Below, piece by piece: positions 1 to 11,561 of a DNA stretch of 64,000 bases (the stretch's first letter is position 1; every line of letters starts with the position of its first letter). Both the position numbers and the translations under genes were made by a program. Source of the DNA: Candidatus Methanomethylicaceae archaeon (lineage in GTDB: Archaea; Thermoproteota; Methanomethylicia; Methanomethylicales; Methanomethylicaceae); the NCBI GenBank assembly GCA_015660995.1, contig JACTUC010000025.1, forward strand, positions 1 to 64,000, given 5' to 3'. The notes beneath the pieces were generated by a model that made no database searches, had not been told where the DNA came from, and saw only the letters and a program-made list of their open reading frames with translations.

Positions 1-16
1 GTCCAGCGACATCTCA

Positions 17-517
17 ATGTTGAGCGGGGGCGAGTCGGACCGAACGATTGGCAAGTCCCTGCGGAGCCTGAAGCTAGCCTCGCGGCAGAGGCGTGCTAAC
101 AATAAGAATGCCAAATATCTGGTTGCCAATAAGGAGGGGCTTTGTCGCATTTTCAGGCGGTATATTCTGGACTGTTTCGATTGTATCGATTGTTTAGAGT
201 GTTACGCAGCTTGGGGCCCCGTTGCTGAGGCTGGAGTTGCCGCAAACGTGCCCATAAGCACGATACATGACGAAACAAACGAAACAAACGAAACAGAGAA
301 GGTTAATGGGACTGATCCACAGCCTCAAGCCGCAGCTTCTAGGAACCCCTCAGCCACTAGCCCTTCTGGGAAAAAGCCCACTGGCAACCTCCAGATCGAC
401 ACCGCGTGGAGCGAGTACCAGGGCACCGCGAAGAAGCCAAGGCCAAGGGTCCCCGAGGGGGAGCTGAAGCATATGTCACCTGCGGCCAGGCGGGCGTGGA
501 AGCAGCTCGCGGGATAG
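17..517 (+). CDS. Hypothetical protein, possibly 5'-truncated by the window edge
   Basis: An open frame of about 166 residues that I do not recognise. The frame stays open to the left edge, so the ATG at 17 may be internal. The N-terminal half is basic with a cysteine cluster (C-F-D-C-I-D-C-L-E-C around residues 53-62). The middle has a short ETN-ETN-ETE repeat encoded by a 9-bp tandem repeat near 271-297. The C-terminal half is rich in Pro, Ala and Ser and probably disordered, ending in a basic stretch. It is more GC-rich than the genes from 2400 to 9800. Nothing in the context suggests a role, and it could be a gene remnant. Confidence 0.4.
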   Translation: MLSGGESDRTIGKSLRSLKLASRQRRANNKNAKYLVANKEGLCRIFRRYILDCFDCIDCLECYAAWGPVAEAGVAANVPISTIHDETNETNETEKVNGTDPQPQAAASRNPSATSPSGKKPTGNLQIDTAWSEYQGTAKKPRPRVPEGELKHMSPAARRAWKQLAG

Positions 518-588
518 CGGGCTAATGGTGCCAGCTCATCTGAAGCTGCTGACGCCAATCAGAGCGAGGCGAATAACCCCTGACGATT

Positions 589-597
589 TTATATAAC
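589..597 (+). promoter_or_regulatory. Probable TATA box upstream of the 98-residue hypothetical gene
   Basis: A TTTATATAA-type box lies about 35-40 bases before the ATG at 630. This is the spacing expected for an archaeal promoter giving a very short leader. The assignment rests on sequence and distance only. Confidence 0.5.
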
Positions 598-629
598 TTG
601 TAGGCCCGTCAATACTGAGATGACCAAGA

Positions 630-926
630 ATGGTCAGAAAAATAACCCTGACTCTATCAGACGGAGCTACTGGATTTACAGATAAGGATGTAAAGGACCT
701 GGAAGGAGCCCTGATTGACCAGCTGGTAATTATTTCATATAGAAAAAAAGACAATATCGTGCGGACCTTTACTACAGATATTGATCCAAGCACAATAGGC
801 TCTGCTATCGGTGGGCTGTTCTATGAAAATGACCCCGAAATGCTTGAAGCGGCAATGCACACGTTGGATTCTTGTAAGTGTGCTTATGGAGACCCTTCAA
901 ACGGCGCTCCAAGGCAAAGCATATAA
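630..926 (+). CDS. Small hypothetical protein (98 aa)
   Basis: A 98-residue acidic protein I do not recognise. It has a plausible archaeal TATA box about 35 bases upstream, no clear ribosome binding site (consistent with a short-leader transcript), and globular-looking composition. A CxC pair lies near residues 82-84. No signal peptide or membrane segment is visible. It is followed directly by the GGCNN pentamer array and a strong inverted repeat, so it may end in an unusual 3' structure. It could be a gene of the accessory island; the function is unknown. Confidence 0.5.
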   Translation: MVRKITLTLSDGATGFTDKDVKDLEGALIDQLVIISYRKKDNIVRTFTTDIDPSTIGSAIGGLFYENDPEMLEAAMHTLDSCKCAYGDPSNGAPRQSI

Positions 927-955
927 TCCCACCGTCCCCAATTGTGATCCCACGC

Positions 956-1051
956 GGCACGGCCAGGCAGGGCTTGACATGGCTAGGCAACGCAATATCA
1001 TGCCACGGCTAGGCTAGGCTTGGCAAGGCGCGGCACGGCTAGGCAAGGCCA
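956..1051 (+). repeat. Degenerate GGCNN pentanucleotide array
   Basis: Units of five bases beginning GGC follow one another from 956 to 1005. After one extra base they run again from 1007 to 1051. Most units read GGC plus two variable bases (TA, AA, CA, AC, TT, AG, GC); four units in the middle are diverged (GAC, CGC, TAT, TGC). The second block is nine perfect GGCNN units. The regular GG doublets could form two-layer G-quadruplexes; that is inference. The array is non-coding as far as I can see and lies just downstream of the 98-residue gene. Confidence 0.85.
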
Positions 1052-1075
1052 GGTGGCCTAGCGCCTGGCCACCTG
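1050..1075 (+). repeat. 9-bp inverted repeat with 8-base loop at the end of the pentamer array
   Basis: CAGGTGGCC (1050-1058) and GGCCACCTG (1067-1075) are perfect inverted arms around an eight-base loop. It directly abuts the GGCNN array. It could be a transcript-end hairpin or a relic of a mobile-element end. The rest of the 927-1330 gap holds an AT-rich stretch with a TATA-like box near 1107-1120 and no convincing gene. Confidence 0.7.
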
Positions 1076-1330
1076 TTGCCATTGGCGGCCATGCATTCAT
1101 TTGCTTAATTATATAAAAGAACAACAACTAAAGGAAAAAATTAAAATTGGCTCAATTGCGCATTGGTCACTATGAGTTCTATCATCAACAATCGGACTTG
1201 GAAGTGACCTTACATGATAATAACCTTTAACGTATAGTTGACTGCCAAACAAAAATTTAATCCCACACACACATTTCCACGGAAAAATTAATAACTCAAC
1301 CAATTCAAGAACCTTTTCTGGGGGGTATAG

Positions 1331-1645
1331 ATGAAAATTATTAGATTATTGAACGTAAATGCCTTTCAGAATCCCCATGCCGTCGAAGCAAAAAGACTCT
1401 ACAATACAAACAATGTTGAAGTTATTCACATGGCCTTAAAACCAGGACAATCGCTAAAAAAACACATCACACCTGTAGACGTCTTCTTCTACATCCTAGA
1501 AGGAAAAGGAGTAGTTGAAATCGGAAACGAAAAACAAGAAGTTGAAAAAGACATGCTTATCGAGAGCCCCAAAAACATACCACACTTATTAAGTAACACC
1601 GGGCAGGACGTCTTCAGGTTTCTCGTGGTTAAACTCCCTAAATAA
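1331..1645 (+). CDS. Single-domain cupin protein (104 aa)
   Basis: A small beta-barrel cupin_2-type protein. The first cupin motif is visible around residues 44-62 (HITPVDVFFYILEGKG, then an EIGNE strand). The second includes PHLLSN near residues 84-89. The first His and the PH pair are candidate metal ligands. The length matches one-domain archaeal cupins. The ATG at 1331 follows a GGGGGG tract about five bases upstream that can act as a ribosome binding site. Single cupins serve many roles (isomerase, dioxygenase, sensor), so no reaction can be assigned. It stands alone between the pentamer array and the DUF6448 gene. Confidence 0.8.
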   Translation: MKIIRLLNVNAFQNPHAVEAKRLYNTNNVEVIHMALKPGQSLKKHITPVDVFFYILEGKGVVEIGNEKQEVEKDMLIESPKNIPHLLSNTGQDVFRFLVVKLPK

Positions 1646-1683
1646 ACACATAGACTCGTGACCCTCACGGCTTATAAATTTCC

Positions 1684-1705
1684 GGTAAATCCTTTTATGT
1701 TGTAG
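1684..1705. repeat. 22-bp direct repeat, copy 1
   Basis: This stretch (starting GGTAAATCC, ending TTGTAG) is repeated base for base at 2417-2438. The two copies flank the DUF6448 gene. A TATA-like sequence lies just upstream of this copy, at about 1671-1680. Confidence 0.85.
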
Positions 1706-1775
1706 TGTTCTGGGTCATAAATCGACTGATGATAGGTAGGGGTATCTGGAGTTGCTAGACCTGCCCTCTTTAGCT

Positions 1776-2330
1776 TTAGTGCTCGTGCGTTTTCAATCCT
1801 TCTTCGCCATGTTCGCCTTTGCCTGTTATTGCCGTGTACAAGCCATGGGAAAACAGCACAAATTGCAGTTCAGCCTGCACATAATCGCGCGCAGCGTCTA
1901 CATTGTTCACATCATACCCTTTTTTCGCTATCGCGTTATTGAATCGTGCCTCGAGTTCTTCTCGCAGTGTGTGCGTCATGAAATCAATGACCTCTCGCGA
2001 ATCTCCAGTTGCGATGGCCTTCTCCGCCCTTGGCACTACAGGTCCCCAGTCCAGCCCTGCCGGCTTAAGACCAGTATAGGGTGCACCCTCTCCTTCCCTA
2101 TGTATCCGCACAACTGTTTCATACAGCCAGTAATCAGCAACCTCCATTGCTTCTTTCCCCTGTCCACGTGCCCTTAGAGTTTTCTCGAAGGCATTAATGA
2201 CCTCCTTCTCTCCTTTTTTAGGGACCCAAGGGAGTATGTAGTTTACATTGCCTTTTTCAAGGGCAATTTTTATTGCCTTGATAACCGGACCATCCAACGT
2301 ATCGCAGTGTGGTGGCATTTTCTTCACCAA
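1776..2330 (-). CDS. DUF6448 family protein
   Basis: A 184-residue soluble protein whose N-terminus carries the signature M-P-P-H-C-D-T-L-D-G-P-V, which I associate with DUF6448. The family's function is not known to me. The His-Cys-Asp cluster at residues 8-10 and scattered His residues make metal binding plausible, but that is inference. There is no signal peptide or transmembrane segment. The protein is mostly helical and charged, with a His-rich C-terminus. The gene is flanked by two exact copies of a 22-bp repeat (1684-1705 and 2417-2438), suggesting it may have moved as a unit. Confidence 0.7.
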   Translation of the reverse strand: MVKKMPPHCDTLDGPVIKAIKIALEKGNVNYILPWVPKKGEKEVINAFEKTLRARGQGKEAMEVADYWLYETVVRIHREGEGAPYTGLKPAGLDWGPVVPRAEKAIATGDSREVIDFMTHTLREELEARFNNAIAKKGYDVNNVDAARDYVQAELQFVLFSHGLYTAITGKGEHGEEGLKTHEH

Positions 2331-2416
2331 ATAAAAATTATTTCATTCCCATATATGTTTATGCGATTTAGGTTAGCGCAATGTGAATCATGGCATGTAA
2401 TATAGCATGGACTCAT

Positions 2417-2438
2417 GGTAAATCCTTTTATGTTGTAG
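2417..2438. repeat. 22-bp direct repeat, copy 2
   Basis: Identical to 1684-1705. It lies 38 bases before a tRNA 3'-end fragment, so two possible recombination scars sit side by side. Confidence 0.85.
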
Positions 2439-2475
2439 ATGCCTGAGAAATCCAGTCTGTTTCACGCATATTTGA

Positions 2476-2500
2476 TGGTGGACCGGGTTGGATTTGAACC
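2476..2500 (-). other. tRNA 3'-end fragment (putative attachment-site scar)
   Basis: On the minus strand this reads GGTTCAAATCC, then a short spacer, then CCGGTCC and ACCA. That is the T-loop, the 3' acceptor strand, the discriminator and an encoded CCA of a tRNA. Upstream sequence cannot form a T-stem, and no matching GGACCGG 5' acceptor strand is present, so it is not a complete tRNA. Archaeal integrative elements recombine into tRNA 3' ends and leave such fragments. The host tRNA would start GGACCGG. Confidence 0.7.
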
Positions 2501-2575
2501 GCTAACGTTGGAGATTATAGCTATTGGCAGCTTATGGCACACACTAGCCGACAAACTTGTGGTATTATATTTTGC

Positions 2576-2926
2576 TCATTTTGACTTTTTCGCGATCTTC
2601 TCTAGGGCTGCAATGTCTTCTTCAGTGAGTTCCATATTATGGAGTTTTATCAGCAATATTCTTTTTCTTAATTCATTTTGTCCTCTTGGCAATGACCAAT
2701 AATACGATTTGCCCTTGAGAGATGATTCAGCAACTTCTTTTCGCTTAATGAGGGCTGAGATGTCTATGCGTAATTGATCTGGACTCTCTCTATATCCTAT
2801 TTTCCTTAATCTTTCCAAGAGTTCTTCGATAGAAATAGCCAAGGATTCTGCTGATGGAAGTGATTTTATTATGAGATTAAAGCGGTGACCACTTCTTCTG
2901 ACGAATTCTTCTCCTGTTTTTTCCAT
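2576..2926 (-). CDS. Hypothetical protein, possibly a winged-helix-like small protein
   Basis: A 116-residue soluble, charged, mostly helical protein that I do not recognise. The stretch around residues 35-75 (two helices, then a basic segment and a W-S-L strand) could be a winged-helix fold, but no diagnostic motif is present. The C-terminus ends in a helix with E-D-I-A-A-L-E. A TATA-like ACATATATACTG lies just upstream of the start on the minus strand. It lies between the tRNA fragment and a ferredoxin gene in the accessory island. Sequence and profile searches would be needed to place it. Confidence 0.5.
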   Translation of the reverse strand: MEKTGEEFVRRSGHRFNLIIKSLPSAESLAISIEELLERLRKIGYRESPDQLRIDISALIKRKEVAESSLKGKSYYWSLPRGQNELRKRILLIKLHNMELTEEDIAALEKIAKKSK

Positions 2927-3025
2927 AACATATATACTGATTGCGTAATATTAAAGTTAGCACGTCTTAAAGTCAGGATTTTAAATATCTAATTACTTTG
3001 ATCAAGGCAGCCTGTCCTTTTCATG

Positions 3026-3352
3026 CTATGCAATAATGCTATACTTTTTGCTTAAATTTTCAAAGATTATTTTTTCTTCATCGTTCAACTTTCGGCTGAA
3101 TCTAAACCAGTTTTTTTTTGCTTTTGCTTCTTCGGGTGCCTCAGATGATTTCCAAATGCAACTTACAGGGCACGAGCCAATGCATGAGAAATCGTCCTGG
3201 CATTTGTCCCATATGAGTCTTGCCTTGCTACTCTCGTCTAATTCCCATGCCTGAAAGGGACAGGCAGCAACGCAGGCTCCACATTCAATGCAAATATCCT
3301 GATCTACAATGACTCTCTGAAATTTTTCCAACTCCTTTCCTTCAACCATCAA
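3026..3352 (-). CDS. Small ferredoxin-like iron-sulfur protein
   Basis: A 108-residue protein with eight cysteines for iron-sulfur binding. C21-x2-C24-x2-C27-x3-C31-P is a standard [4Fe-4S] motif. C51-x5-C57-x3-C61-x3-C65 is a second, atypically spaced set. Two 4Fe-4S clusters are likely, so it should be an electron carrier or a redox subunit. The basic C-terminal 40 residues lie outside the ferredoxin fold. There is no partner oxidoreductase nearby. Translation may start at the first or second Met. The 721 bases that follow (3353-4073) are AT-rich and hold no convincing gene apart from the repeats listed next. Confidence 0.8.
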   Translation of the reverse strand: MMVEGKELEKFQRVIVDQDICIECGACVAACPFQAWELDESSKARLIWDKCQDDFSCIGSCPVSCIWKSSEAPEEAKAKKNWFRFSRKLNDEEKIIFENLSKKYSIIA

Positions 3353-3868
3353 ATCACCTTATAATAACTCAATATATTATACTGCTAGAAATGCCTTTAT
3401 CCCCGCTACAGTAATTGGAAATGTGGCAAAAATCACCAGTTAAATTTTAATCCCCAAGCCCGGGCAAAGACCTGGCTCAGAGGACCTTTAGCGTATAGAT
3501 GGCGGGGGAGACTTTACAAAAATCTTGAAATGGCAATTGCGCATATTCTCAAATTACCTCGTTCTATCTGAAGTAGGTTTTTGAAGGGTTCATGGAGCGG
3601 GAGCTTTGAAAGGCGAGATGATTTTCTTTTAGCTTAGAATTATTTAAACAAAAATTTTCCACGTGGCCACTTGGGAAACCCTTGGATCCAAATGGGCGAA
3701 CAAATAGGCTCAAAGACAATTTGGCGGAGTTCTTTCTTTATTTTCTTTTCTTCTTTATATTAATAAAAAAATTATCAACAAAAAAATATAAAATAATTAG
3801 AGAAGGAAAAAAAGTGGTCATGAGGCTTCCAAGTGAAGCTTTCGGAGCCTTCTCTATCCAACCTATTG

Positions 3869-3932
3869 CCTTTTACTTTCAATATTCACTATTCCTAACG
3901 CCTCTTACCCTCAATATTCACAATGCCTAACG
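3869..3932. repeat. Two tandem copies of a 32-bp repeat
   Basis: 3869-3900 and 3901-3932 are adjacent 32-base copies sharing the core TCAATATTCAC and the ending CCTAACG, with a few substitutions. A separate 9-base direct repeat CCCTCTATA follows at 3953-3961 and 3979-3987. The whole block is AT-rich and lies 140-200 bases upstream of the operon that encodes an MCM-like ATPase. It resembles an iteron/origin or operator region; that role is inferred. Confidence 0.75.
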
Positions 3933-4016
3933 TGTTTATCTATTCATAGTGTCCCTCTATACATCTATTGCATATTACCCCTCTATAGTTGTATTTCATA
4001 TAATATAATGCCAAAA

Positions 4017-4025
4017 GTTTAAATA
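4017..4025 (+). promoter_or_regulatory. Probable TATA box of the MCM-like operon
   Basis: A TTTAAATA-type box lies about 50 bases before the ATG at 4074, following AT-rich sequence. Placement is by pattern and distance only. Confidence 0.4.
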
Positions 4026-4073
4026 AAGTCAGAATTGAGGCTAGCCAAAGAAAGAATTTTGGAGATGAGATAG

Positions 4074-4367
4074 ATGAATTCGAATGATGCGCTTGCCGGC
4101 AAAGGTTTAGAAAAGAATGGGCTCTCGCCTTTTGTCCTTCGAAGATATCAATATGCGCTCAAAGGATTTGCAGACATCAATTATCATGCGAAGAAACATT
4201 TGCTAGAATTGAAGCTAATGAATTTTAAAGGCAAAACAACCGACTACTTTTCTTTCAAACTAAATGCTGATCTAACAATAAATCTGTTTGAAGCCATTGA
4301 GGCAATAATCATAGCATACTGGGTGCAAGAGCTTCGTAAAGAATCAATGGGGGGATTGGCCCATTGA
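4074..4367 (+). CDS. Hypothetical protein, first gene of the MCM-like operon (97 aa)
   Basis: A 97-residue basic, helical protein that I do not recognise. It has no Cys and no membrane segment. Its stop codon overlaps the TTG start of the downstream AAA+ ATPase (4364), so the two are translationally coupled and probably act together. A purine-rich GGGGGGATT stretch inside its 3' end serves as the next gene's ribosome binding site. By position it could be a loader, adaptor or DNA-binding partner of the ATPase. That is inference from gene order. Confidence 0.6.
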   Translation: MNSNDALAGKGLEKNGLSPFVLRRYQYALKGFADINYHAKKHLLELKLMNFKGKTTDYFSFKLNADLTINLFEAIEAIIIAYWVQELRKESMGGLAH

Positions 4368-5821
4368 TTGCAGAGAATAATACTGCAACGCTGTCGGATT
4401 CTGCCAAGAAGATTTTGATAGATGGTGAAATCTTAAAGAAGAATGAGGAACTAGCGCTTCAGATTGGCAATGGCTACAATTTCACGCGACGCATTTTCCA
4501 GGAAATATCGTTGATCATTGCAGGTCAGCTAATCAAATGGATAAATAGCACTGATGTTTTGCGAGGCTACTCCCATGCGGGGATCTACGCTTCACCTGGG
4601 CTTGGGAAAGATTATGCTTGGACACTTGCTGAAAATTCGAACATATTTCCTTTTGATTTGTTGAGAGCCAGCAGAGTTGACAACTTAACTACAGCAACGC
4701 TATATGGGACTATCAGCGCAGGAGGATGGATTGTTCCTCCAGTAACAATAACTAATGACATCATATTTGTTGGGGAATATTCGACTTTACTCCGCGGGAA
4801 TGAACAAGCAAATTTGGCTGCAGATTTGCGGGTATTCCAGGAAACCGGGCATTACTCACGTCGGTTAGCAATGCTTATGGAATTAAAAACAGAGCTAGAA
4901 AATCCTCATAAAAAAGCCATAATCGAAAATGAACTTCAAAGATTGAAAGCCCAAGGATTAACGATAGACCTAGAGAAAAGCGAGTTAACAGTTAATAGCA
5001 CTACTTCATGGATGATCAATAGCGCTAGGTTTGGTACTCAGACCTCCTTTGGGAGACCGTTGCTGGCCATGGGGGATATCGATAGGTTACGATGGAGAAG
5101 TTATCTGCCTGATGTTGATGAACGAAGAAAGATCGTCCTCGATGTTGGATCTTTTCCTTCCGTATCTATAGATATTGCAACGGCAAAAGCCCTGAACGAA
5201 GCTTGGAAATACCTAGCAAAATTCTACAAAAACAACAATATCGGAATTAGCATACCATTCGACGAGGCAAGTCATCAAAAAAGAAAAGAGGTTTGGATTG
5301 CTACTCAAAAGGAGATCGAAGAGAAATACGGTCAACTTGAAGATAAATACACTGAGCAACTCGTAAATTTGAGATCTTCCTCAGAATTCCATCGTATCAT
5401 GTACCAGTATGCTGCATTGAAGCAATTTCAACGTTGTCAAGGATATGACTTCTCTATCCCCGATAAATTTGTCATCGACTATAAGGAGGACGGTGATTTT
5501 GCAAGGAAACTATGGGTTGAGGAGTATGTTCCAAGCCTAATTGATGTTGTAAATGATGTACTGAAGTTAGATCACCGGGGTTCTATGAAAGGACCAAAAC
5601 TCAAAGAGATAGCAATAAGGAAAATCTTAGACATTTTGGGCAATGGCCCCATGAGCTTCGAGGACATTCATAGCAGTTTTCAAGAAGCTGAACAAATTAG
5701 TCAGCCATACCTGTACAAGCTTCTTAGGAAACTGGTTGATGAAGGTAGCATCTCCAGAAAAGATGGATTTTACGAATCGGTTCAAGCTCATCAACCGGTG
5801 AGTGGAGGTGAAAAAGAATGA
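4364..5821 (+). CDS. MCM-like AAA+ ATPase with C-terminal winged helix
   Basis: A 485-residue protein. Residues 76-83 read A-S-P-G-L-G-K-D, a Walker A loop in the MCM style but with Asp where Ser/Thr is usual. Residues 133-139 (I-I-F-V-G-E-Y) sit where the Walker B strand should be, with Gly replacing Asp and Glu138 kept. Further on, segments resemble the MCM sensor and arginine-finger region (about 220-260). A helical stretch follows, and the last 80 residues look like a winged helix. There is no N-terminal MCM OB/zinc domain. The start is TTG, coupled to the upstream gene with a strong GGGGGG ribosome site; the end overlaps the next gene by four bases. Likely a mobile-element helicase or DNA-dependent ATPase, possibly with altered catalysis. 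Confidence 0.65.
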   Translation: MIAENNTATLSDSAKKILIDGEILKKNEELALQIGNGYNFTRRIFQEISLIIAGQLIKWINSTDVLRGYSHAGIYASPGLGKDYAWTLAENSNIFPFDLLRASRVDNLTTATLYGTISAGGWIVPPVTITNDIIFVGEYSTLLRGNEQANLAADLRVFQETGHYSRRLAMLMELKTELENPHKKAIIENELQRLKAQGLTIDLEKSELTVNSTTSWMINSARFGTQTSFGRPLLAMGDIDRLRWRSYLPDVDERRKIVLDVGSFPSVSIDIATAKALNEAWKYLAKFYKNNNIGISIPFDEASHQKRKEVWIATQKEIEEKYGQLEDKYTEQLVNLRSSSEFHRIMYQYAALKQFQRCQGYDFSIPDKFVIDYKEDGDFARKLWVEEYVPSLIDVVNDVLKLDHRGSMKGPKLKEIAIRKILDILGNGPMSFEDIHSSFQEAEQISQPYLYKLLRKLVDEGSISRKDGFYESVQAHQPVSGGEKE

Positions 5822-6141
5822 GCGAAAACGAAGATGAAATATTGCATCATGGTCTTAGCACCGGAGAATTTAAGCCAATCCTAACGCCTACAGATTACTT
5901 TGTATTTGGACATGAACCGTGTAAAGAAAAAAAGAATGCTGGAAGTTGCGACATTACTGCCGTACTGTTGGATAATAGCACACGCGTTATCTTCAATTTG
6001 AAATGTCAAGATTGCGGGAAAATAGACGCCTTAAAGGTCGCAGTATTTCCATTTTCAGTGATGGTGCCTTCTCGCGCATATGACTTATTCCATATATCCC
6101 CAAAATACAAAAACCGCATTACTTCGCATTGGTGGGATTAA
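5818..6141 (+). CDS. Small cysteine-containing protein, third gene of the MCM-like operon
   Basis: A 107-residue protein overlapping the ATPase gene by ATGA. It has one Cys pair (C-Q-D-C near residues 63-66) and two further cysteines about 20-30 residues earlier (in EPCKE and GSCD), so it may be a single zinc-binding module. The C-terminus is aromatic and ends in W-W-D. I do not recognise the family. Tight coupling suggests it works with the ATPase. No promoter of its own is visible. Confidence 0.6.
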   Translation: MSENEDEILHHGLSTGEFKPILTPTDYFVFGHEPCKEKKNAGSCDITAVLLDNSTRVIFNLKCQDCGKIDALKVAVFPFSVMVPSRAYDLFHISPKYKNRITSHWWD

Positions 6142-6227
6142 TTTTTTAATTAACCCCATTTTTCTTTTTTCTTTTTACTGATGATCTTTTTTCTACGAAT
6201 TCCAAATTTGGATATTGGATAAAGAAT

Positions 6228-6265
6228 AATTTTCCTGCCCCGACCCGTTATATAGTGGCCCTGGG
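6228..6265 (+). promoter_or_regulatory. Duplicated promoter block, copy 1
   Basis: This block shares AATTTTC, CCCGACC, T-x-ATATAG, GG and CTGGG, in order and spacing, with 9830-9868. The TTATATA core is a good TATA box for the small membrane protein gene starting at 6295. CCC and GGG arms flank the TATA, so a regulator could bind across it. Confidence 0.65.
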
Positions 6266-6294
6266 AAAATTATCTGCCTTGGGAGGCGGACAAA

Positions 6295-6477
6295 TTGTTC
6301 CTTTTGTTCTTCTTCTTGTTTATGTTCCTTGGAGCGATAATCTTTCTTCCAGCGCTATTTCTTGTTGGTCTCGGCTTACGAAGATTAGCTCATGGAAAAG
6401 GCGTAAGCGGAATGTTGCTTATGGTGTTAGGCGTGACATGGATTGTGTTTGTTTTTGGAGAAATGCTTGCTGGTTGA
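6295..6477 (+). CDS. Small two-helix membrane protein (60 aa)
   Basis: A 60-residue protein with two strongly hydrophobic segments (about residues 2-27 and 37-57) joined by a short basic loop (R-R-L-A-H-G-K-G). It should be a small integral membrane protein with both ends on the same side. The TTG start is supported by a GGAGG eight bases upstream and a TATA box about 45 bases upstream. A longer frame starting at 6255 in another register has no such composition and I rejected it. No function can be inferred. Small membrane proteins next to nucleases sometimes act as toxins or effectors, but nothing here proves that. Confidence 0.6.
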   Translation: MFLLFFFLFMFLGAIIFLPALFLVGLGLRRLAHGKGVSGMLLMVLGVTWIVFVFGEMLAG

Positions 6478-6484
6478 GTTATTC

Positions 6485-6766
6485 TTAAGGATACTTCTCT
6501 TGAATTGCTGTTACAACTGCTCTTGCCAGCATCACATCGTCAATCCAGATGCATTCTGCATGTATGGTATCCGCTTCTTGTTTCATGTCATAATTTTTCG
6601 TAATAACAATCATGCTATTGTCTTTTGCAAATTGGACAATATCTCCATCTTCATGATTCTTCAAAGTACCTTTCTCCATTTCTTTTTGAACGGTAGTAAT
6701 TTCCCATTTTTGATGGCGCAATAATTTTTCTAGACCATAGACATTCTCGTCAAGTAGGATTTTCAT
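6485..6766 (-). CDS. DUF5615/Mut7-C-like PIN-fold protein (putative toxin nuclease)
   Basis: A 93-residue protein starting M-K-I-L-L-D-E-N-V, the hallmark of DUF5615 PIN-like proteins. A second acidic stretch follows near residues 38-45 (N-H-E-D-G-D-I), then I-V-I-T-K-N-Y-D around residues 53-60. These are the positions of the metal-binding acidic residues of PIN ribonucleases. Family members often pair with a DUF433 antitoxin, which is absent here. Instead the gene lies six bases downstream of a PD-(D/E)XK nuclease on the same strand and probably shares its transcript. RNase or toxin activity is inferred from family. Confidence 0.75.
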   Translation of the reverse strand: MKILLDENVYGLEKLLRHQKWEITTVQKEMEKGTLKNHEDGDIVQFAKDNSMIVITKNYDMKQEADTIHAECIWIDDVMLARAVVTAIQEKYP

Positions 6767-6772
6767 CAGGGC

Positions 6773-7723
6773 TCATCTCTCGATTTTACCCCATTCTACT
6801 TCATCAAGAATGGGTTTCAAAGTTTTCACATACTCACATAATAAATTAGAAACCTTGTCTAATAATTCTCCATTCAACGAATTGATTTTTCCGTCCCATT
6901 CTATATTTTCATAGATCTTTCTCCATGAGCGTCTTCTGCCATATTTCTTTTCGAATTGAGCATAGGGGAGAATTGCTGAAATCTTCTTTTCATACTTAAG
7001 CAACATTTGGAATAGTTTATGATTATTTTTCTTATCGCGTTCCATATAGAATCCTATTTCAATGGGACCGTTTCGTTTCAACCATACTTTAAAAGTAAAA
7101 CTACCATGGTTACCAAAATAGTATCGGATAACGTTTCGTATAGAGTTAAATTCTACCTCTGTAGAATTTACAAGAGTTTTTTCTTTTATGTCTTTGAGGA
7201 ATTCTTCTCTTTTTCGGTAATGCCTTTCTATTGGAATTTTATAGGGTTTGGGTTGCTTAATAATTTCACATTTTTTGTTTTTGTCAACCAAGATTATTCC
7301 TAGATGATCGTCGAGAATATTTTTATCAATCCATTCAAGATGATGAATATTTTTTTGCGCATTTTCCTTTTTCAGAGCTACAAAAAATTTAACGGGAAAT
7401 TCATTCTGTAAGATAATTCGTTCATTATCTCTAAATTGAAACCATTCTCTTTCTTTGCTTGAATTGACCTTGTCAAGAAAAGCATGGGAGTAGTGTGCTA
7501 TAGCAGAATGATAACCCAATATTTGGCCGAGAGTTTTACCTATTCCTGCTATGCTTTTACTTAGTTTACATTCAACTACATAGAAACATTTTTCATCTTC
7601 GTTATAGCCTAAAACATCGAATCTGGTGCCTTTAAAACTAAATTCAGTGGTAGGAATCCTTTTTCCTTCCCGTAGAAAATCAGCTACAGGTTTAGCGATT
7701 TCCCGTTTTTCCTTATCTGCCAT
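6773..7723 (-). CDS. PD-(D/E)XK nuclease-like protein (316 aa)
   Basis: The N-terminal 100 residues carry a restriction-endonuclease-like core: R-F-D-V-L-G-Y with Asp36, then Y-V-V-E-C-K-L with Glu51 and Lys53, then G-Q-I-L-G-Y at about 66-71. These are the D, E-x-K and Q of PD-(D/E)XK nucleases. The C-terminal two thirds is helical and basic, with aromatic residues, and may bind DNA or RNA; I do not recognise it. There is no methyltransferase nearby, so it is not an ordinary restriction-modification pair. The gene precedes the PIN-like gene by six bases and diverges from the second nuclease module. A host-defence role is inferred from this company. Confidence 0.7.
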   Translation of the reverse strand: MADKEKREIAKPVADFLREGKRIPTTEFSFKGTRFDVLGYNEDEKCFYVVECKLSKSIAGIGKTLGQILGYHSAIAHYSHAFLDKVNSSKEREWFQFRDNERIILQNEFPVKFFVALKKENAQKNIHHLEWIDKNILDDHLGIILVDKNKKCEIIKQPKPYKIPIERHYRKREEFLKDIKEKTLVNSTEVEFNSIRNVIRYYFGNHGSFTFKVWLKRNGPIEIGFYMERDKKNNHKLFQMLLKYEKKISAILPYAQFEKKYGRRRSWRKIYENIEWDGKINSLNGELLDKVSNLLCEYVKTLKPILDEVEWGKIER

Positions 7724-7807
7724 AATTAGACTTATTGGTATAACATATTTAATTAATTAATTGCATATTAGGATATTTCATGCTATTTTTTGTTCCCGGA
7801 AGTTCAT

Positions 7808-7888
7808 ATGAAGTTCGAGAGAATACCTAGATCAAAAAGTGAAATTATTAATGCAGTAAGCAGAATAGGATTCAAGCGACGTGGTAAT
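7808..7888 (+). pseudogene. Possible HicA-like toxin remnant (N-terminal ~25 codons)
   Basis: Starting at ATG 7808, about 25 codons read as a basic peptide resembling the start of HicA mRNA interferases (I-P-R-S-K-S-E-I-I-N-A-V, then I-G-F-K-R-R-G). The frame then runs out of register into the nuclease gene that begins at 7881, and the expected G-S-H with catalytic His is absent. This looks like a toxin gene cut off by the neighbouring module, or chance similarity. Confidence 0.25.
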
Positions 7889-8639
7889 AGTGCTTCAAGC
7901 CCAACTTCGAGGAAAACTTTCAAGAAACGAGGAAGACTCAGAAGATTTGCTAACATCAAACGTGTTTGGTTCTTTGAAGTATGTGCCAAAAGAAGCTGGA
8001 ATAGTGCCAATTTTATCATTAGTTAAGAATATTGATGGAGACCCGCTAAAATTAGACGCCGTTGCGGATATTAAATATGATTTTTGGCCATGGATAGAAA
8101 GAGTAAAGGGACATGGTTGTGAACCCGATGTTTTGATCATAGCAAAACAATCCAATAATAATAAAGTAATGATATTGGTAGAGTCGAAATATTTTTCCGG
8201 AAAATCCAATAGTGAAAATAGCGAGGAAGAAGCCGAGAGATACATGATTCATGATCAATTGGCAAGGGAATGGGATAATCTAATAATTGAGGCGGAAACG
8301 AAGGATGCAATTCCTGTTCTATTATACGTCACTGCGGATTTTTCTTTTCCTAAGAGAGAGATCGAAGAATCTGTTGAGGATTTCAAAGCACAGCGTCCAT
8401 CCGCACAAACAATGAACATTTATTGGACATCTTGGAGATTCATACAAGACTTACTGTCTAAATCAGATTACGATATTTTAAAGGATGTTGCAGAAGTTCT
8501 TCGTAAACAGGGTTTAAAACTCTATAGCGGAATTACAATAATACGGTCATTAAAAATTGGCTGGAAGTTCGATGCCCTCGAATCAAGGCTTCTATGGAAA
8601 TACGCGCCTCTAAAGATCACTTGGAGATTTGAAAAATGA
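7881..8639 (+). CDS. PD-(D/E)XK nuclease-like protein, first gene of a two-gene module
   Basis: A 252-residue protein. The N-terminus (residues 5-35, including E-D-S-E-D-L-L-T-S-N-V-F-G) is typical of a family of nuclease-like proteins. Glu81-Pro-Asp83 followed by I-L-V-E101-S-K103 gives the D and E-x-K of the PD-(D/E)XK core. A helix with D-Q-L-A-R-E-W follows. The frame has a stop at 7866, so translation begins at GTG 7881 or GTG 7890; neither has a clear ribosome site. The stop overlaps the next gene's ATG, so the two products are likely partners. No methylase is present. Likely DNA or RNA cleavage; the trigger and substrate are unknown. Confidence 0.65.
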   Translation: MVIVLQAQLRGKLSRNEEDSEDLLTSNVFGSLKYVPKEAGIVPILSLVKNIDGDPLKLDAVADIKYDFWPWIERVKGHGCEPDVLIIAKQSNNNKVMILVESKYFSGKSNSENSEEEAERYMIHDQLAREWDNLIIEAETKDAIPVLLYVTADFSFPKREIEESVEDFKAQRPSAQTMNIYWTSWRFIQDLLSKSDYDILKDVAEVLRKQGLKLYSGITIIRSLKIGWKFDALESRLLWKYAPLKITWRFEK

Positions 8640-9217
8640 GTGAAGATGAAAAAAATATTTTAAATGCGATGAAGCAGGTCAGAAATCTATTCAAAGAATT
8701 TGCGCTAATACTTGAAACAATAGATGATCAGTTAGAAGGAAAAGGATTCGAAACCATTACTGGAAGCACATGTCTAGCAGACGGTTCGTCTTCATTATAC
8801 TCCCCAACTTATTGGATGCCGACTCATGTTCTCAGGTTTTATCAAAACGCACATTACAGCAATCTGCAACTCTATGTTGCTATTTATTTTGATGATGATA
8901 ATCGCCAAGATTATCTTTTAAATCAACCAATAATTTCTGCAGGTGTATTCGATTTCCAAACAAAGAAAGTAACTTTTAATGGAGATTATGATCGAGCCAA
9001 ATTTTTCTTCGAAGCATTTACCTTCTTGAAAAAGACGCAGTTCATACCAGGTGAGATATTGACGCTATCGATAGATATGGATTGGAAGAAAGAGGTAGGG
9101 GACTATGCCTTTGACTCTGCAACATGCTTTGCATATCCTTTATTATCCATCAAAAATTCATCAGATATTGAAGAAAAGATCACCAAAGTATTATTGAAAA
9201 TTATTGAAGAAAAGTAG
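8636..9217 (+). CDS. Hypothetical partner of the PD-(D/E)XK nuclease (193 aa)
   Basis: A 193-residue acidic, soluble protein overlapping the nuclease gene by four bases. It begins with a helical segment. A beta-rich aromatic region follows (about residues 60-150, with several Tyr, Phe and Trp and a Y-F-D-D-D-N-R loop), and it ends in a charged helix. I do not recognise the family. Translational coupling suggests it forms a complex with, or regulates, the nuclease; an immunity or sensor role would be inference. Confidence 0.6.
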   Translation: MSEDEKNILNAMKQVRNLFKEFALILETIDDQLEGKGFETITGSTCLADGSSSLYSPTYWMPTHVLRFYQNAHYSNLQLYVAIYFDDDNRQDYLLNQPIISAGVFDFQTKKVTFNGDYDRAKFFFEAFTFLKKTQFIPGEILTLSIDMDWKKEVGDYAFDSATCFAYPLLSIKNSSDIEEKITKVLLKIIEEK

Positions 9218-9337
9218 AAAAAGGTACCTATCATAAAAGTCTGAGTTCGGCAGACAATGTTGCTCCATACCATTGAAATAGAGCCATATTTCTAGCAATT
9301 TTATATGCCATCACAAACATAGAATTGGCGAATAGTT

Positions 9338-9805
9338 ATGAGCATAAAGATCGTCGATTGTTTTGTTGTAGATTCTAATTATATCATGTCTTATCATCAA
9401 CGTCTCAATGGTATGATGCGCGAGCTTATTCAATATTTACAGGGACAAAAAATTGAATATAACATAATAATGCCATTCTTAGAAGAACAACAAAAACAAG
9501 TTAAAAAGATGAAGGAAGAGCTCTCTTTGTACAAGGTGCAATGGTCAGAATCTATCAGCTTCAAAGAGAGCTACCTCGTTGTTCTTGAACAGTATAATTC
9601 AATACTTGAAGTAATGATTCAAGAAACCAATAATTTTGTACATTCTGCTGAAAAAGGAAATACAAATGTACCTAAGATGAATAATGCCCGAATTCAAGAA
9701 GAATTTGATAAATTTACTTTACGTGGGAAAATCGCGAGCGAAAAATATCGCATAATAAAAGAAGAATACGAAAAAGAGATGTTGAGGTTCAGTAAAAGCG
9801 AATAA
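9338..9805 (+). CDS. Hypothetical coiled-coil protein (155 aa)
   Basis: A 155-residue charged protein, almost entirely helical, with heptad-like stretches around residues 45-75 and 120-150. No Cys motif or membrane helix is seen. A TATA-like TTTTATATG lies about 35 bases before the ATG, so it probably has its own short-leader transcript. It is the last gene of the accessory island before the tRNA-Ser-like fragment. No function can be assigned. Confidence 0.55.
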   Translation: MSIKIVDCFVVDSNYIMSYHQRLNGMMRELIQYLQGQKIEYNIIMPFLEEQQKQVKKMKEELSLYKVQWSESISFKESYLVVLEQYNSILEVMIQETNNFVHSAEKGNTNVPKMNNARIQEEFDKFTLRGKIASEKYRIIKEEYEKEMLRFSKSE

Positions 9806-9829
9806 AAAAAACGATTTCGGAAAAGAACA

Positions 9830-9868
9830 AATTTTCATATTCCCGACCATTGATATAGCGGTTCTGGG
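9830..9868 (+). promoter_or_regulatory. Duplicated promoter block, copy 2
   Basis: This matches 6228-6265 at AATTTTC, CCCGACC, ATATAG, GG and CTGGG. It contains a GATATAG TATA-like core but no gene follows within the expected distance, only the tRNA fragment at 9911. It may be a relic promoter or a regulator site. Confidence 0.55.
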
Positions 9869-9910
9869 GATTTATTCATCGATAAAATATGACTCCATTT
9901 GATGAATCTT

Positions 9911-9952
9911 CCTCTTCGGGGGTGCAAGGGTTCGAATCCCTTCCCCGGCGCC
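9911..9952 (+). other. tRNA-Ser-like 3'-end fragment (putative attachment-site scar)
   Basis: The plus strand reads a long variable-arm hairpin (CCTC-TTC-GGGG). A perfect T-arm follows (AAGGG-TTCGAAT-CCCTT, 9926-9942), then acceptor CCCCGGC, discriminator G and CC. The long variable arm and the CCCCGGC acceptor fit archaeal tRNA-Ser, whose 5' strand would be GCCGGGG. No such strand occurs upstream, so only the 3' part is present. It lies exactly where AT-rich island sequence gives way to core genes, so it is a good candidate for an integration scar. The rest of 9806-10109 holds a promoter-like block and the permease promoter. Confidence 0.75.
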
Positions 9953-10060
9953 TACATATTTAAGATTTCATCTCACTCTTTGCGCTGGCAATCGCAGAAC
10001 AATATTGCTCGCGGGCCACGTTTATACTTGATCAATTTTCGCTACTCGGGGGATCGTAAA

Positions 10061-10109: not shown

Positions 10110-11561
10110 ATGGCAGACACGGAAGGGCGCTCAAAGCTATCCCTCTTCGATGTTGTGAACCTGGTAGTTGGCGCGATAATAGGGGCTGACATCTATGTGG
10201 CATCGTCGTTCGGGGCAGGTTATCTTGGGCCAGGTTCCATTTTGGTCTGGATTATCGCCGGAGTCATAGCCATCATTCTTGCGCTATGCTTTGCTCAGTG
10301 CGCCTCCTACGTAACAAGGGTTGGCGGCACTTATGCCTACGCCAAGGAAGCTTGGGGAACTTTCGCAGGATTCATTGTGGGATGGTCGATATGGCTTGCA
10401 GAGTGGATGTCGTTAGCTGTTTTCCCAGTTGCTTTCGTTGAATACTTAATGTTCTTCGTCCCCAACCTTGGCTGGTATGAGCAGAGTGCTGTAAAACTCG
10501 TATTTGTCATCTTCCTTGCACTCAGCAACATTGTTGGCGTCAAGGCAGCTGGAAGGACGAACGATGTACTAACCATAATTAAGCTGGTTCCCCTGCTGCT
10601 CTTCTCAGCAGTGGCCGCAATCTTTGTGTTTCAGAACCCATCAATCGCCGCAGGGAATTATATGCCTTTCCTTCCGCTCGGTTTCTCGGGCTTTGGGTCT
10701 GCACTTGTGCTTATTTTTTGGGCCTATGCGGGTTTTGAGATAGCTGCCATCCCAGCGGATGAGATAAAGGATGCAGGTAAGAATATCTCAAGGGCGATCA
10801 CCATAGGGATTGTCATAGTCACTGTTTTCTATCTGACTACAAATGCACTACTCTTCGCGGTTCGGCCCTGGACTCAGTTGGCAACTGACACAACCCCCCT
10901 CACCTCAGCCACACAGTACATACTGACCTCCGTACCGCTCCTAGCAATTATTGGTGCAACGGTAGTGGGGATAGGAGCCCTTGTCTCAATTGCCGGGTCC
11001 GACGAGTCCGGAATGATTGGGACTTCAAGGCTGGGCTACGCCATGGCTGTGGACGGGCTTTTCCCCAAGTCTTTTGCTAAAGTCCATCCTAGGTTCAAGA
11101 CACCTTACATAGGGATAATAATACAGTCGGCGACTGCGTTTGTTGCTTCCCTTTTTGGTGGGCTGGGGATGCTGGTTGCAACTGCGGTGTTTCTCCTTGC
11201 AGTCGGGTATGCAGCGACCTGTGCCTCCATATTCCCGCTACGGAAGAAGAACCTCAATCCACAATTCAAATTGAAAGGGGAATCGGTAATCGCAGTGGCG
11301 GGGTTGATCTTCTCGATTTATCTGATCACACAATGTTCATTCACTCAGATTGGGCTGGGAATGGTCATGCTTCTAGTAGGGGTGCCAATTTACATCAAAT
11401 TCACGCCGAAAAAAGAGCTGACCGAACTCAAGAAGAATCTCATCTCAAATGAAGCAAGATTTGACGAAGTTATCGAAATAGAACACAGGTTCCTTGCCCA
11501 CCCATTGTATCACATAAAAATGGCGTACAGGCGTAGGAAAAAGGGTGGACAGCAGCAGTAA
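10110..11561 (+). CDS. APC-family amino acid permease
   Basis: A 483-residue polytopic membrane protein of about twelve helices. The first helix carries the APC substrate-backbone motif V-G-A-I-I-G-A-D, a variant of the common G-x-G-I/T-G. Helix 6 contains W-A-Y-A-G-F-E, a typical APC feature. Length and pattern match amino acid/polyamine transporters of the APC superfamily. The substrate cannot be read from sequence. The C-terminal 60 residues are cytosolic and basic. The gene has its own palindromic promoter and stands alone, convergent with rps10. It marks the return to core-like composition. Confidence 0.9.
   Translation: MADTEGRSKLSLFDVVNLVVGAIIGADIYVASSFGAGYLGPGSILVWIIAGVIAIILALCFAQCASYVTRVGGTYAYAKEAWGTFAGFIVGWSIWLAEWMSLAVFPVAFVEYLMFFVPNLGWYEQSAVKLVFVIFLALSNIVGVKAAGRTNDVLTIIKLVPLLLFSAVAAIFVFQNPSIAAGNYMPFLPLGFSGFGSALVLIFWAYAGFEIAAIPADEIKDAGKNISRAITIGIVIVTVFYLTTNALLFAVRPWTQLATDTTPLTSATQYILTSVPLLAIIGATVVGIGALVSIAGSDESGMIGTSRLGYAMAVDGLFPKSFAKVHPRFKTPYIGIIIQSATAFVASLFGGLGMLVATAVFLLAVGYAATCASIFPLRKKNLNPQFKLKGESVIAVAGLIFSIYLITQCSFTQIGLGMVMLLVGVPIYIKFTPKKELTELKKNLISNEARFDEVIEIEHRFLAHPLYHIKMAYRRRKKGGQQQ

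Follow-up and report, generated by a model that had tools for sequence, protein, structure and literature searches.

Organization of the operon and upstream repeats

The window, by which the whole 64-kb stretch of analysed DNA is meant, represents contig C7 of the source genome (G000). As the first-pass annotation described, three of its genes overlap end to start, and repeats lie just upstream of them. The features are as follows:

3862 to 3931, plus strand: iteron-like tandem array with 2.2 units of 32 bp, some 140 bp ahead of gene 1
3945 to 3996: weaker 26-bp repeat pair, directly after the 32-bp array
4014 to 4027, plus strand: candidate BRE/TATA-like stretch AAAGTTTAAATAAA, read by eye, about 50 nt upstream of gene 1
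4074 to 4367, plus strand: gene 1, 97 aa, ATG start, matching no known family
4364 to 5821, plus strand: gene 2, 485 aa, TTG start, AAA+-like ATPase
5818 to 6141, plus strand: gene 3, 107 aa, ATG start, CX8C and CX2C, matching no known family

The overlap is 4 nt at each junction (TTGA between genes 1 and 2, ATGA between genes 2 and 3), and the three genes therefore probably share one transcript. The TTG start of gene 2 agrees with the ATG start of its single homologue, found in a Bathyarchaeota genome (G300, see below), and the gene is single-copy in its own genome. No family match was obtained for any of the three proteins in Pfam, NCBIfam, PADLOC or PDB, in accordance with the earlier statement that both small partners were unrecognized, and comparison with PHROGs gave marginal matches (E 0.003 or worse) to families with unknown function or unrelated names. 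Genes 1 and 3 had no relative in IMG/VR. The gene 1 product had been called basic, which is correct, but just mildly so (net charge about +3, counted by hand). The Cys content noted for the gene 3 product amounts to four residues, which were read from the sequence as CX8C...CX2C, and a zinc ribbon is possible on that pattern. With a score of 21.5, where 300 shuffles reached 13.5 at most, the 32-bp array is the top tandem repeat of the window. By their sequence, the repeats upstream of gene 1 would fit iterons or operator sites; no array like the 32-bp repeats was present in the 220 bp around the start of the G300 homologue.

Integration into tRNA-Ser(CGA)

The operon lies inside an insertion of at least 16.5 kb plus the gap between the starts of contigs C1 and C7. 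The right side of this element is on C7, the window, and the left side on C1 of the same genome:

Window 1 to 9954: right part of the element, of low GC, ending in attR
Window 6485 to 6766, minus strand: DUF5615/PIN-like protein, element cargo
Window 6773 to 7723, minus strand: nuclease-like protein, weak PDC-S18 match, element cargo
Window 7881 to 8639, plus strand: PDC-M15A-like PD-(D/E)XK nuclease, candidate defence cargo
Window 8636 to 9217, plus strand: 193-aa partner of the preceding nuclease, 4-nt overlap, the two forming a candidate defence pair
Window 9911 to 9954, plus strand: attR, an exact 44-nt copy of the tRNA-Ser(CGA) 3' end
C1 1 to 6621: left part of the element, carrying the integrase
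C1 5672 to 6652: tyrosine integrase (Phage_integrase, 79.9 bits), adjoining the tRNA
C1 6622 to 6729, minus strand: intact intron-containing tRNA-Ser(CGA)

The 3' end of the intact tRNA points toward the start of C1, and the next gene in that direction is the integrase. The assignment to Ser(CGA) is our own and is based on the anticodon loop and the long variable arm; the label Ala given by ARAGORN is due to the intron. Beyond about 1 kb, the element part of the window has a GC of 0.33-0.45, with 0.33-0.41 between roughly 2.5 and 9.5 kb, as against about 0.5 in the host flank with its ribosomal-protein and EF1A genes, and GC in C1 is low as far as the integrase and tRNA. Relatives keep S10, tRNA-Ser, archease and RtcB in one uninterrupted stretch, with a spacing between tRNA and S10 of 12 nt in one case (L107) and about 0.3-5 kb in five others (L103, L105, L106, L109, L111). 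The source genome has S10 on C7 but archease-RtcB on C1, from which it follows that one insertion has the start of C1 as one side and the start of C7 as the other. The membership of the operon in an element integrated at tRNA-Ser(CGA) is firm.

A 41-nt intergenic repeat shared by C1 and C7 was also considered as a link between the two halves, but it recurs several times in C20 and was dropped as evidence. A family of intergenic repeats of about 40 nt, some with CCTTTARCGTATAG, is scattered over at least three contigs belonging to the source genome (window 1223-1271 and 3461-3501; L116 669-709 and 3221-3261; L120 11896-17338).

Several other features of the region deserve mention in their own right. 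The neighbours of the integrase in the left part of the element include an HNH/endonuclease VII-like gene together with a gene for a DnaQ/RNase H-like exonuclease (L116 4391-5541). A second tRNA 3'-end fragment (GGTTCAAATCCAACCCGGTCCACCA) is located at 2480-2504 of the window on the minus strand, under a spurious 'VDRVGFEP' ORF, and may be the attachment scar of another, nested insertion. Between attR and S10 there is an amino acid permease (10110-11561), which is missing at this position in the relatives examined and may therefore be a separate acquisition.

A single homologue and its genomic context

The sole homologue of the ATPase was found in Candidatus Bathyarchaeota archaeon 8_1_Jan_SF_Bin96 (JAOULW01; G300), a MAG in which the gene is split by a contig boundary. 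The N-terminal half is on contig C32 (49% identity) and the C-terminal half on contig C9 (40%), and the two halves meet within two or three residues. When 398 genomes across the phylum were searched, with the single sequence and then with a profile, G300 was the only carrier besides the source genome; profile searches gave no further member in 91 genomes of the family of G300, 257 of its class or 40 of the class of the window. The ATPase and its halves had no relative in IMG/VR, nor had the ATPase in INPHARED phages or PLSDB plasmids, and a wider search of genome contigs returned the same MAG alone. A weak match in G256, lying antisense to phosphoglycerate kinase, was rejected. The distribution is patchy: two of the genomes searched across the phylum carry the gene, and the above identities span different classes.

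In G300 gene 1 is missing upstream of the ATPase and a divergent HTH regulator occupies its place. The position of gene 3 is held by a 121-aa winged-helix-like gene, again with a 4-nt overlap, which has no similarity to gene 3. The G300 ATPase itself has a Cys/His cluster at its end (DCKNCQYRETCPH) that might stand in for the Cys-rich gene 3. What is conserved is thus the ATPase together with its coupled-gene layout, but not the gene triplet. An undescribed ATPase-based system had been put forward as one possibility, for which conservation of the triplet would speak and homologues lacking the neighbours would speak against. The search for the same triplet in other archaeal genomes found no second one and the sole homologue stands without both partner genes; a three-gene system is therefore not supported.

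The G300 gene is likewise situated in a tRNA-Ser-flanked island, between a tRNA-Ser(GCT) at C9:3331-3419 and a degenerate 39-nt copy of the 3' region of this tRNA (87% identical, E=4e-7) at C32:18605-18642. Its neighbours include a DNA methyltransferase, a DpdB-like/PDC-M34B-like protein and nucleases; no integrase was found in the island. The ATPase is the one protein of the window element for which a match was found in the G300 stretches. The DpdB-like protein of this island (L033 11608-14034) is 808 aa long, with HEPN-Swt1 and PDC-M34B similarity.

The ATPase active site

The Walker A motif of gene 2 is ASPGLGKD (residues 76-83), with the P-loop ending in Asp, and the Walker B motif is IIFVGE (residues 133-138), with Gly for Asp. 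Both changes had been pointed out before, and both are kept in the homologue, the two motifs being the same in the two proteins apart from S77P. Lys82 and Glu138 are retained in both. In the comparison of the two homologues, the best-conserved stretches were the P-loop, the Walker B strand, TTSWMIxSARFG...GRPLLxMGDxxRxRWR and EQLVNLR...RIMYQxAALKQF. Substitutions per codon position were 0.49/0.32/0.67, which indicates a genuine ORF and a protein under selection.

In ordinary P-loop ATPases, the last Ser/Thr of the P-loop and the Asp of Walker B both help to hold magnesium. The joint conservation of the two active-site changes across classes argues against simple decay. Judging from these two sequences, the Asp at the end of the P-loop and the Gly in Walker B may be a compensated swap. 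Carried further, this would make them a new family of initiator ATPases used by mobile elements, namely by archaeal elements that integrate at tRNA-Ser. Walker B would have passed its Mg-binding acid to the last P-loop position (GK[S/T] to GKD, hhhhDE to hhhhGE), and the AAA+ site would be active with its metal chemistry rearranged; we put this forward as a tentative reading, which at present we hold to be unlikely.

Relationship to MCM

The protein had been described as a degenerate MCM-like ATPase without the MCM N-terminal domain and with a C-terminal winged helix. The absence of the N-terminal domain is clear, since just 65-70 residues or so precede the P-loop and the domain has about 250. 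The winged helix also found support: in hhalign, residues 395-475 scored 29.3 against the MCM C-terminus (shuffles 14.9+-2.8, z=5.2, at sequence level), the C-terminal region reached z of 2.5 or less with the other tested templates, and weak NCBIfam/Pfam HTH matches also fall in gene 2. The general likeness to MCM is less well defined. Gene 2 did not match the Pfam MCM profile PF00493 even at E=10, and its Walker motifs depart from the MCM pattern (GDPxxxKS, DE). The profile-profile score with MCM was 29.7 (shuffles 17.9+-2.6) and that with MoxR 26.6 (shuffles 15.2+-2.8; z about 4), both via the P-loop, and there was no Pfam match to MoxR. Residues 92-400 compared with MCM at shuffle level (z=-0.2). 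In the same comparison an ABC transporter template reached a z of 6 that arose spuriously in its membrane region, and z values of 4-5 are therefore suggestive and were not taken as proof.

AlphaFold2 models of the ATPase had pLDDT of 35.6 (one sequence) and 36.4 (three sequences); these low-confidence models place a long charged helical insert at about residues 146-196, after Walker B. As the similarity does not extend beyond the P-loop and winged helix, the scores are suggestive and pLDDT is about 36, the protein was not filed as an MCM, and kinship with MCM may be called weak. Of the earlier description, 'MCM-like' holds for the P-loop and winged helix but not for the centre, where similarity was not detectable, and the conserved paired changes argue against 'degenerate'.

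Proposed function and alternatives

We give about an even chance to the reading that the operon serves as replication module to the element in tRNA-Ser(CGA), an integrative element of plasmid-like type with a size of at least 16.5 kb. The suggestion of a mobile-element replication initiator made in the first-pass annotation has gained strong contextual support from the integrase-bearing insertion at tRNA-Ser and from the homologue in a tRNA-Ser-flanked island. The replicative role itself is suggested by analogy, by the upstream repeats and by there being no other recognized replication gene in the sequenced part: no further replication ATPase was recognized among the sequenced element genes. 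The patchy distribution and the pairing of an AAA+ P-loop with a C-terminal winged helix of MCM type also speak for this reading. The centre of the element falls in the contig gap, so that another Rep could hide there. The absence of a primase, polymerase or known Rep gene near the operon, the shortness of the repeat array and its absence at the G300 gene start, the lack of an integrase in the G300 island and the restriction of the MCM similarity to P-loop and winged helix speak against it.

If the operon is indeed such a module, the integrase would first excise the element. The 485-aa ATPase would then bind the upstream repeats by its C-terminal winged helix, form a ring on the origin and open or unwind the DNA, either as an initiator or as a self-loading helicase. 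It would remain active because the metal-binding acid has shifted, Walker B Asp being replaced by Gly and the P-loop Ser/Thr by Asp. Genes 1 and 3 would be dispensable, lineage-specific accessory DNA-binding factors.

The main rival, owing to the nucleases carried by both islands, is that the ATPase is an anti-virus defence cargo motor of the tRNA-integrated island, working with a nearby nuclease in the manner of MoxR or McrB; we consider this unlikely, though it is the strongest of the alternatives. The PDC-M15A-like nuclease and PDC-S18-like protein of the window would agree with it, as would the DpdB/PDC-M34B-like protein, DNA methyltransferase and nucleases of the G300 island, and the P-loop of the ATPase is equally close to MoxR and MCM. 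However, none of the three proteins matches PADLOC, the nuclease neighbours differ between the islands and stand outside the operon, and the winged helix matches MCM and not MoxR.

It is rather improbable that the ATPase has lost hydrolysis and serves the element as a DNA-binding regulator or scaffold, such as an AAA+-derived transcription or copy-number factor. The alteration of both canonical Mg-ligand positions and the presence of a winged helix are in line with this, but the two homologues agree fully in the Lys of the P-loop, the Glu of Walker B and an Arg-rich block, and these motifs belong to the most conserved stretches, which would be odd for a dead ATPase. Least probable is an accessory ATPase for integration/excision or transfer, like MuB/TniB or a partition ATPase, since the gene, for all that it sits within an integrase-bearing element, lies far from the integrase at a different end, has been retained in G300, whose island yielded no integrase, and has no similarity to such families.

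The ORFan-like operon and the integrated element are both real. Many archaeal integrated elements have no recognizable replication protein (PMC6563490; PMC6972569), and if the replication-module reading is true, some of these cases would be explained by a family of initiator-like ATPases that go unannotated and are linked to tRNA-Ser insertions. Should the swapped Asp restore activity, the protein would show in an instructive way that the Walker A/Walker B rule has exceptions, and would warn against labelling such proteins dead.

Comparison with known systems

Archaeal MCM (PF00493) resembles gene 2 in profile over the P-loop and C-terminal winged helix (z about 4-5) and in the order of P-loop, Walker B, conserved Arg block and C-terminal winged helix. 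Gene 2 differs in the changes of Walker A Ser to Asp and Walker B Asp to Gly, in the lack of an N-terminal domain, in the long charged insert after Walker B and in residues 92-400, which have no detectable similarity. The host also encodes a normal MCM (G000:C5:44845-45516). In seven other genomes (G002, G004, G005, G016, G023, G029, G240) MCM genes with frames of 1162-1792 codons and split PF00493 matches were observed, which suggests one or more inteins in the chromosomal MCM of relatives. Similarly, about 1.4 kb interrupts the RtcB match in G016 (L103 2702-5569), and this RNA ligase gene may hold an intein or insertion.

Two mobile-element ATPases of the same phylum, L079 and L080 of G027, are also MCM-like with an altered Walker B and a winged-helix-like C-terminal end; one is beside a primase-like gene, and L080 is near a tyrosine recombinase. 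However, they keep the Walker B Asp and have Glu replaced by Gly (hhhhDG), the reverse of hhhhGE in gene 2, possess long N-terminal regions, and their pairwise profile score with gene 2 is at shuffle level.

SCCmec elements of staphylococci carry Cch/LP1413 and CCPol-MP-Cch2 operons, in which Cch is MCM-like and Cch2 acts on a repeat-containing origin (PMC7581432). They share with the present case an integrative element with a small operon of a replication helicase and small partner proteins (PMC7581432). The operon described here differs in having no DUF927 domain and no polymerase gene, and the element has another type of recombinase; DUF927 (PF06048) had no match in gene 2, and the Cch-type domain was absent from the 151 genomes of the phylum that were searched for it.

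Among archaea, the pT26-2-family plasmids of Methanococcales have MCM-like Rep genes, with tRNA-Ser as the usual integration target (PMC6972569), and thaumarchaeal integrated elements carry MCM or Cch-like genes (PMC6563490). Those Rep proteins were recognized by their authors as MCM-like, whereas the similarity of gene 2, compared by description, is much weaker, and in pT26-2 the MCM-like gene adjoins the recombinase, whereas the operon here is at the opposite end from the integrase (PMC6972569). The common point is a single MCM-like ATPase per integrative element as the proposed starter of replication (PMC6972569; PMC6563490). An element-encoded initiator-like ATPase is thus of a known kind, and the conserved change in its active site is what is unusual.
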